Shown piece after piece: positions 26,413-27,530 of a stretch of 32,156 bases of DNA. Source of the DNA: Acidobacteriota bacterium (GTDB lineage Bacteria; Acidobacteriota; Terriglobia; Bryobacterales; Bryobacteraceae); assembly GCA_005808865.1 (NCBI GenBank), contig SYKU01000056.1:1-32156 (forward strand), in the 5' to 3' direction. The translations under genes and the position numbers were made by a program. Below the pieces are notes generated by a model. It searched no databases. It worked only from the letters and a program-made list of their open reading frames with translations, and was not told where the DNA came from. Position 1 is the first letter of the stretch, and each line of letters begins with the position of its first letter.

Positions 26413-26740
26413 TGGACCCCTCTATACCACCAGATTTTCGGACTGGATGCGATTCTGGCAAAGTTCTGCGCCGATGTCAAGGGCCTGTGTGAGTCTCGTC
26501 CAATCACCGGCTTTTCAACGCCCTTCTGCCAGATCCCCGCACGGCAACTCGGTCTCCACATGCGTCTCACGCGGCTGCGGGCCCAGTGCCGCGATGCGCT
26601 CCGCTTCCGCATCGAGCCGCAACCCATCAGGCTCTGCTGCAAATTCTGGCTTGTCTCAAATTTCGGCCGCTATCATGTCGATTGATGCCCGTGGTGGCGC
26701 GGAGTTCGAATCCAATCGCAATCTCTTGCGGTTGTATAAG

Positions 26741-26889
26741 CCTGAAATCCGAAGTTGCAATCATTTCAAAGACTATCCGACGTATTTTGAATGGTTTACG
26801 CTGTGGAAAGCCAACTTCGGCGAAGTTGGCTTTCCAGCCTGCAAGCCGCTTAAAATAATTGGTTTAAGTGTCAAACTTCGGATTTCAGG
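26741..26889. mobile_element. MITE-like non-autonomous element, 149 bp
   Basis: 16-bp perfect terminal inverted repeats CCTGAAATCCGAAGTT (26741-26756) / AACTTCGGATTTCAGG (26874-26889); flanking 5-bp direct repeats ATAAG (26736-26740, 26890-26894). Confidence 0.85.
26804..26836. repeat. internal palindrome of the MITE-like element
   Basis: TGGAAAGCCAACTTC-GGC-GAAGTTGGCTTTCCA, 15-bp perfect arms, 3-nt loop. Confidence 0.9.
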
Positions 26890-26967
26890 ATAAGACACTC
26901 GGCGTGCAGGCAAGACATGATCGTGCCGTAAGCCCTCCTATTCTGGCGTTCTGGGTATTATGGAATT

Positions 26968-27204
26968 ATGGCAACGAGGAAAATGACCTTCAGCGTACCC
27001 GAGCCGTTGGCCGTGCAGCTTCTGCGCAGAGTTGCCTCACGAGACCGTTCGCGTTTCGTAAGTGAGGCCTTGGCTGCACGACTGGAAGCGCGCGACCTCG
27101 AGTTAATTCGCGCCTGCGATATTGCGAATCAGGATCTGGATGTGGCCGAAATCGAGAAGGAGTTTGACGGAATTCGCGACGGGATGGCGGAACCATGGAA
27201 GTGA
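26968..27204 (+). CDS. antitoxin of MazEF/PemIK-like pair
   Basis: MATRKMTFSVPEPLAVQLLRRVASRDRSRFVSEALAARLEARD... RHH-like; overlaps toxin start. Confidence 0.8.
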   Translation: MATRKMTFSVPEPLAVQLLRRVASRDRSRFVSEALAARLEARDLELIRACDIANQDLDVAEIEKEFDGIRDGMAEPWK

Positions 27205-27530
27205 TCCCGGAGCGTGGCGAGATCTGGTGGGTGGCGCTCGATCCCACGCTCGGGTCGGAGATTCGTAAGACACGCCCCTGCGTTGTGATTTCAGTGAAGG
27301 TTTTAAATCAGAAGCGAAGGACGGTAATCGTTGTACCGCTGTCGAGTTCGCCGAAGGCCAGCCCCCCGATCCTGATCCCGATCTCCTGCGAAGGGCGCCC
27401 TGCAGTGGCGGTCAGCGACCGAATCCGGGCAGTGGCAAAGGAACGCCTGCGTAGTCGACTGGGCCAAGTCACAGCGGACGAGTTGGCTGCACTTGAGGGT
27501 GGCCTCAGGCAAATCATGCAGCTTGGATAA
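27195..27530 (+). CDS. MazF/PemK-family toxin
   Basis: RGEIWWVALDPTLGSEIRKTRPCVVISVKVLNQKRRTVIVVPLSSSPK..ISDRIRAVAKERL; canonical MazF fold motifs. Confidence 0.92.
   Translation: MEVIPERGEIWWVALDPTLGSEIRKTRPCVVISVKVLNQKRRTVIVVPLSSSPKASPPILIPISCEGRPAVAVSDRIRAVAKERLRSRLGQVTADELAALEGGLRQIMQLG

Follow-up and report, generated by a model that had tools for sequence, protein, structure and literature searches.

A 149-bp MITE family in a Bryobacteraceae genome, very probably mobilised by a resident IS1380-family IS

What is the short element with inverted ends at 26741-26889 of the window (the whole stretch of 32,156 nucleotides analysed here, from an Acidobacteriota soil bacterium of the Bryobacteraceae), and what has multiplied it? 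The initial annotation read it as MITE-like and guessed at an IS1380-like transposase. The evidence set out below makes it very probable that the element is a MITE of this genome, and that an IS1380-family IS resident there supplied, in trans, the transposase which multiplied it.

Anatomy of the element

The letters of the window copy were checked at its coordinates. It is 149 bp long (26741-26889, + strand), within the size range of MITEs (about 30-300 bp, without a transposase gene). It carries no transposase gene, and the open reading frames which cross it are only mechanical; coding capacity had been judged absent from the start. The copy differs from the family consensus at 3 of 149 positions, and it appears to be intergenic. 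The left TIR, CCTGAAATCCGAAGTT, lies at 26741-26756 (+ strand); the right TIR (26874-26889, - strand) is its exact reverse complement. The TSD reads ATAAG at both 26736-26740 and 26890-26894 (neither with an assigned strand), as determined from the match between the flanks and from comparison of copies.

The interior contains a central palindrome (26804-26836, no assigned strand), which forms a hairpin of two perfect 15-bp arms (26804-26818 and 26822-26836) with GGC as the loop. The palindrome holds the inner motif of the TIR, CGAAGTT, twice, head-to-head. The octamer AACTTCGG is found at 26813-26820 in the hairpin and at 26874-26881 in the right TIR. The segment TTRCGCTGTGGAAATCCAACTTCGSCGAAGTTG (26796-26835, + strand) is common to unrelated MITEs of relatives; its core matches the final codons of the IS1380 transposase, which encode PTSPKL, and this match sets the orientation of the MITE relative to the IS. 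The inverted ends, the ATAAG flanks, the perfect hairpin and the octamer shared by TIR and palindrome had all been described in the initial annotation and are found at these positions. The CTTAAA/TTTAAG pair which it also described is present in the window copy (26849-26854 and 26863-26868), but it needs a G-to-T change private to that copy. It is not a feature of the family, because the family consensus reads CTGAAA.

The folding energy of the MITE is -65 kcal/mol, against a mean of -32.7 for dinucleotide shuffles (z = -8.7). These features are well beyond chance, because the folding is strong and the same 149 bp are found 20 times at full length in the host. Directly downstream of the window copy is a gene for a PemK/MazF-type toxin (27195-27530, PF02452), preceded by a small overlapping antitoxin-like ORF (26969-27530 for the arrangement). 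The MITE could influence expression of the toxin gene.

Copies and target sites

The host genome is a draft of 5.7 Mb in 493 contigs. Copies of the MITE lie on separate contigs, at about 26 sites: 20 are full-length, two are internally deleted and four are partial (on C403, C278, C437 and C201). On average, two full copies differ by 3.9%. The internally deleted copies measure 128 bp (C366, L048) and 114 bp (C393, L050); their deletions take away most of the hairpin or one of its arms, and the TIRs and TSDs of both are exact. AAGCC repeats bound the C393 deletion, a pattern typical of replication slippage.

An exact 5-bp TSD is found in 19 of the 22 two-ended copies, and its sequence differs between copies. 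In every one of the 22, position 2 is T and position 4 is A, which defines a symmetric target, NTNAN. The three copies with unequal flanks still fit NTNAN on both sides; copies that recombined with each other, or joins made in assembly, could account for them. The initial annotation had proposed to look for dispersed copies whose 5-bp flanks differ, and finding them upholds its MITE reading.

No copy occurs in any of the 60 relatives searched, nor in the two further members of the genus. Comparison with 237 more genomes from the family gave no full match; the palindrome segment alone was matched. Its spread is therefore recent and lineage-specific.

Insertion into a reading frame

The copy on C80 interrupts a reading frame. 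When its flanks are joined with one TTCAG retained, a 247-aa frame crosses the junction, and a homologue in genome G116 matches residues 1-246 of the joined frame at 74% identity. In DNA alignments, G116 (L163) and G002 (L169) are continuous at the junction, without an insert. The C80 site in these two genomes is the equivalent of an empty site. An unoccupied site had been suggested as a check on the window copy itself; the joined flanks of that copy were searched in both remaining genomes of the genus, and the orthologous region was not found there. Most joined-flank ORFs at the other copies were short or resembled GC-rich noise, and were left aside.

Three of the partial copies, each with a single MITE end, were considered as possible parent elements and rejected. 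The C201 copy is truncated. By our own reading of the sequence, the C278 copy has an integrase-like transposase gene inserted in it. The sequence adjoining the C437 copy is a separate multicopy repeat which is also found without the MITE. The C278 locus (L059:2576-4012) is thus a nested insertion, with the MITE copy split by the element that carries the integrase-like transposase. The repeat fused to the C437 copy (L061:6700-6842) occurs at about ten places in the host, mostly at contig edges, and is probably a different IS that has jumped into the MITE. Two further host elements, L057:2001-2187 (C288) and L058 (C436), start with CCTGAATTCCGAAGTT; these are apparently a second, older non-autonomous family.

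A probable autonomous IS1380 partner

A search of 61 genomes of the family with CCTGAAWTCCGAAGTT yielded a two-ended element of 1513 bp in genome G018. It encodes a 459-aa protein which scores 244.5 bits on the NCBIfam IS1380 model (NF033539, cut-off 180 bits) and also matches Pfam DDE_Tnp_1_4 and DDE_Tnp_1. Scores on NF033539 are 244.2 bits for L103 and 239.6 bits for L108. On the models for IS1634, ISH3, IS4 and IS701, the matching transposases are far below the cut-offs. Full-length ISs in Bryobacterales/Acidobacteriota are 1500-1513 bp long and have the TIR CCTGAATTCCGAAGYT, 5-bp duplications and NTNAN targets. L103, L105 and L104 (1500-1512 bp) have the TSDs TTAAG, TTAAC and CTAAG; the flanks of the G018 element are unequal (TTTAG and CTCAG), and both fit NTNAN. 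The MITE has the same type of end as these ISs, a TIR starting with CC next to a 5-bp NTNAN duplication. The guess at IS1380 has thus proved sound, with an IS of matching ends whose transposase exceeds the family cut-off.

The host itself contains pieces of such an IS, with 89-94% DNA identity to L103. These comprise four left ends, two inner pieces (each at the start of a contig), and right ends on C96 and C2; all are cut by a contig end except the (shorter) right end on C2. The four left ends have different flanks (ataaa, cttaa, tttag and attac), so the host has at least four copies of the IS. The picture resembles that of an IS whose multiple copies have been collapsed by draft assembly. 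The IS is assembled as fragments only, nearly all at contig edges, and an intact transposase gene is likely to be present in the host. A truncated IS match is common to L106 and G001:C228; G001 belongs to the genus of the host.

The right ends of the IS in the host and in relatives are identical to the MITE TIR at 15 of 16 bases, and the right end of one IS fragment, in genome G127 (L133), has exactly the MITE variant. Only in the TIR and the palindrome can the MITE be aligned with the host IS. No IS was found which matches the MITE at both TIRs plus tens of bases inward, and a search of the host plus 60 genomes of its family found no parent IS with CCTGAAATCCGAAGTT at both ends. The search for a full-length IS sharing the TIR, proposed initially, has succeeded as far as IS1380 ends with 15 of 16 matching bases, but not for an element with CCTGAAATCCGAAGTT at both ends. 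The initial annotation had named three findings that would speak against its reading: a single copy in the genome, no IS with matching ends, and conservation together with the flanks in relatives. None of the three was found, with the qualification that an orthologous site for the window copy could not be located in the two further genomes of the genus.

A palindrome shared with transposase codons

In the ISs, the final transposase codons, CCA ACT TCG CCG AAG TTG (PTSPKL), form a perfect palindrome together with the next G. Its distance from the right end is about 100 bp. The centre of the MITE has the same core, with arms lengthened to 15 bp.

The case that the palindrome is conserved by selection on the transposase C-terminus or the mRNA end, and is a passive relic in the MITEs, is evenly poised. 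The motif does encode a conserved peptide, PTSPKL, and the palindrome does not track the TIR exactly. Strict covariation of the two was sought among the ISs and not found: in L125 and L129 the inner motif of the TIR is CGAAATT but the palindrome has CGAAGTT. There are also MITEs without the palindrome, such as the 142-bp element of G015, which has exact TSDs. On the other hand, only one of the 4608 possible spellings of PTSPKL is perfectly palindromic, and 8 of the 16 listed IS copies or ends have precisely that spelling. Among 12 ISs (near-duplicates left out), codons for the same amino acid are identical in 86% of cases in the palindrome window and in 50% gene-wide, an excess which ranks first of 377 windows. 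A passive relic also sits poorly with the retention of TTGCGCTGTGGAAATCCAACTTCGCCGAAGTTG, or a close variant, in the otherwise unrelated MITEs L114, L115, L116 and L118 and in the segment L113; in the MITEs of relatives this motif mostly adjoins the right TIR.

Such conservation at the level of codons and sequence motifs suggests that the palindrome has a role as DNA, as an accessory transposase contact or as a structure. Two observations limit this reading: in L125 and L129 the motif does not track changes in the TIR exactly, and at least one MITE family, that of G015, lacks it. A more specific proposal is tentative, and we lean somewhat against it: the IS1380 group may carry a third, palindromic recognition site for the transposase, placed within the final codons of its gene and composed of two head-to-head inner TIR motifs, which MITEs would keep as raising transposition. 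Conservation of this palindrome in the ISs lends support to the suggestion in the initial annotation that the recurring octamer marks repeated transposase-binding motifs; the motifs are putative, unproven binding sites.

Mobilisation and origin

The DDE transposase of the resident IS1380-family IS, which has near-identical 16-bp ends, would mobilise the MITE in trans. It would cut at the CC ends and join them to a staggered 5-bp NTNAN target, and direct repeats would result. We infer an intact, active IS in the host and take it to be the actual mobiliser; the palindrome may serve this transposase as an extra contact or structural site. The interior of the MITE is no arbitrary filler, since it retains a palindrome that corresponds to the 3' end of the transposase gene of IS1380. 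The MITE is hence most likely an IS of the IS1380 group that was internally deleted or reassembled, and would then have spread.

It is very improbable that a transposase of another family with CC ends and short duplications (e.g. IS5, IS701 or Tn3) mobilises the MITE. Such a source would fit the fact that no autonomous IS with CCTGAAATCCGAAGTT at each end was found in the host genome. However, ISs of the IS1380 family have the same 16-bp ends (with 0 or 1 mismatch), the NTNAN target and the internal palindrome; their transposase is above the curated IS1380 cut-off and fails those of the four other families, and the G127 fragment ends in the exact TIR. One can practically dismiss a functional element of the host (a REP- or regulatory-RNA-like repeat, or a terminator) kept for its hairpin and not as a transposon: the folding is very strong and copy C132 (L042) has a compensatory change, with both hairpin arms altered in step, but the exact 5-bp TSDs, the lineage-restricted presence and the insertion into a gene argue otherwise, an Rfam search with the MITE gave no match up to E = 1, and intrinsic terminator prediction on it made no call, a T tract being absent 3' of the stem.

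The kind of element is already known; this MITE is genuine, and in all likelihood mobilised by IS1380. In the portions of the literature accessible to our search, which did not extend to ISfinder, no description was found of a MITE family tied to IS1380. The present case supplies one linked to that family, together with NTNAN as a clean target rule of 5 bp for these ISs, and it points to a dual-use stretch of DNA that is coding and palindromic at once. End recognition in IS1380 is of general interest because one member of the family, ISEcp1, mobilises resistance genes (PMC9330008).

Comparison with known systems

The IS1380 ISs resemble the MITE in their CC-starting TIRs, 16-bp ends and 5-bp duplication. 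They differ in that they carry a transposase gene, with a product above the NF033539 cut-off, and are 1500-1513 bp long, whereas the MITE has only 149 bp and no such gene. Published members of the family have TIRs of 16 to 21 bp and duplications of 4 or 5 bp (PMC4133298, PMC2887853). ISPa33 is 1561 bp long with 16/16 TIRs and a 4-bp DR, and ISPsp9 is 1718 bp long with a 5-bp DR (PMC4133298). ISEcp1 makes a 5-bp duplication (PMC2887853); its reported target, TATGA (PMC2887853), differs from the NTNAN of the MITE.

Other IS1380-ended MITEs are found in relatives: L083/L084 (142 bp), L116 (311 bp), L118 (225 bp) and L114 (170 bp). They share with the host MITE a TIR of the IS1380 type, CCTGAATTCCGAAGT(T). 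Identical 5-bp direct repeats are a further likeness in L083, L084, L116 and L118, and the palindrome segment is another in L114, L116 and L118. Unlike the host MITE, they have unrelated interiors, some with a hairpin GGCACGGCT...AGCCGTGCC. The 142-bp MITE of G015 (L083:2256-2397 and L084:2153-2294) is a distinct element with an IS1380-type TIR and the TSDs TTTAA and TTCAA. In L116:1238-1548, L118:1316-1540, L115 and L076, the IS1380 TIR surrounds a REP-like hairpin, GGCACGGCT...AGCCGTGCC within TGTATCAG...CTGATACA; these elements are possibly composites in which IS ends are combined with a REP unit.

Beyond the IS1380 family, MITEPye1 is a MITE with IS1182-like ends (PMC11578231), and TIMEs have Tn3-type ends (PMC4133298). 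Both resemble the MITE described here: they are short, they have the TIRs of an IS or transposon family, they are flanked by target duplications, and their transcripts fold strongly (PMC11578231, PMC4133298). The present MITE differs from both in its IS1380 ends, its higher copy number, and an interior palindrome which the presumed parent IS has within its transposase gene.
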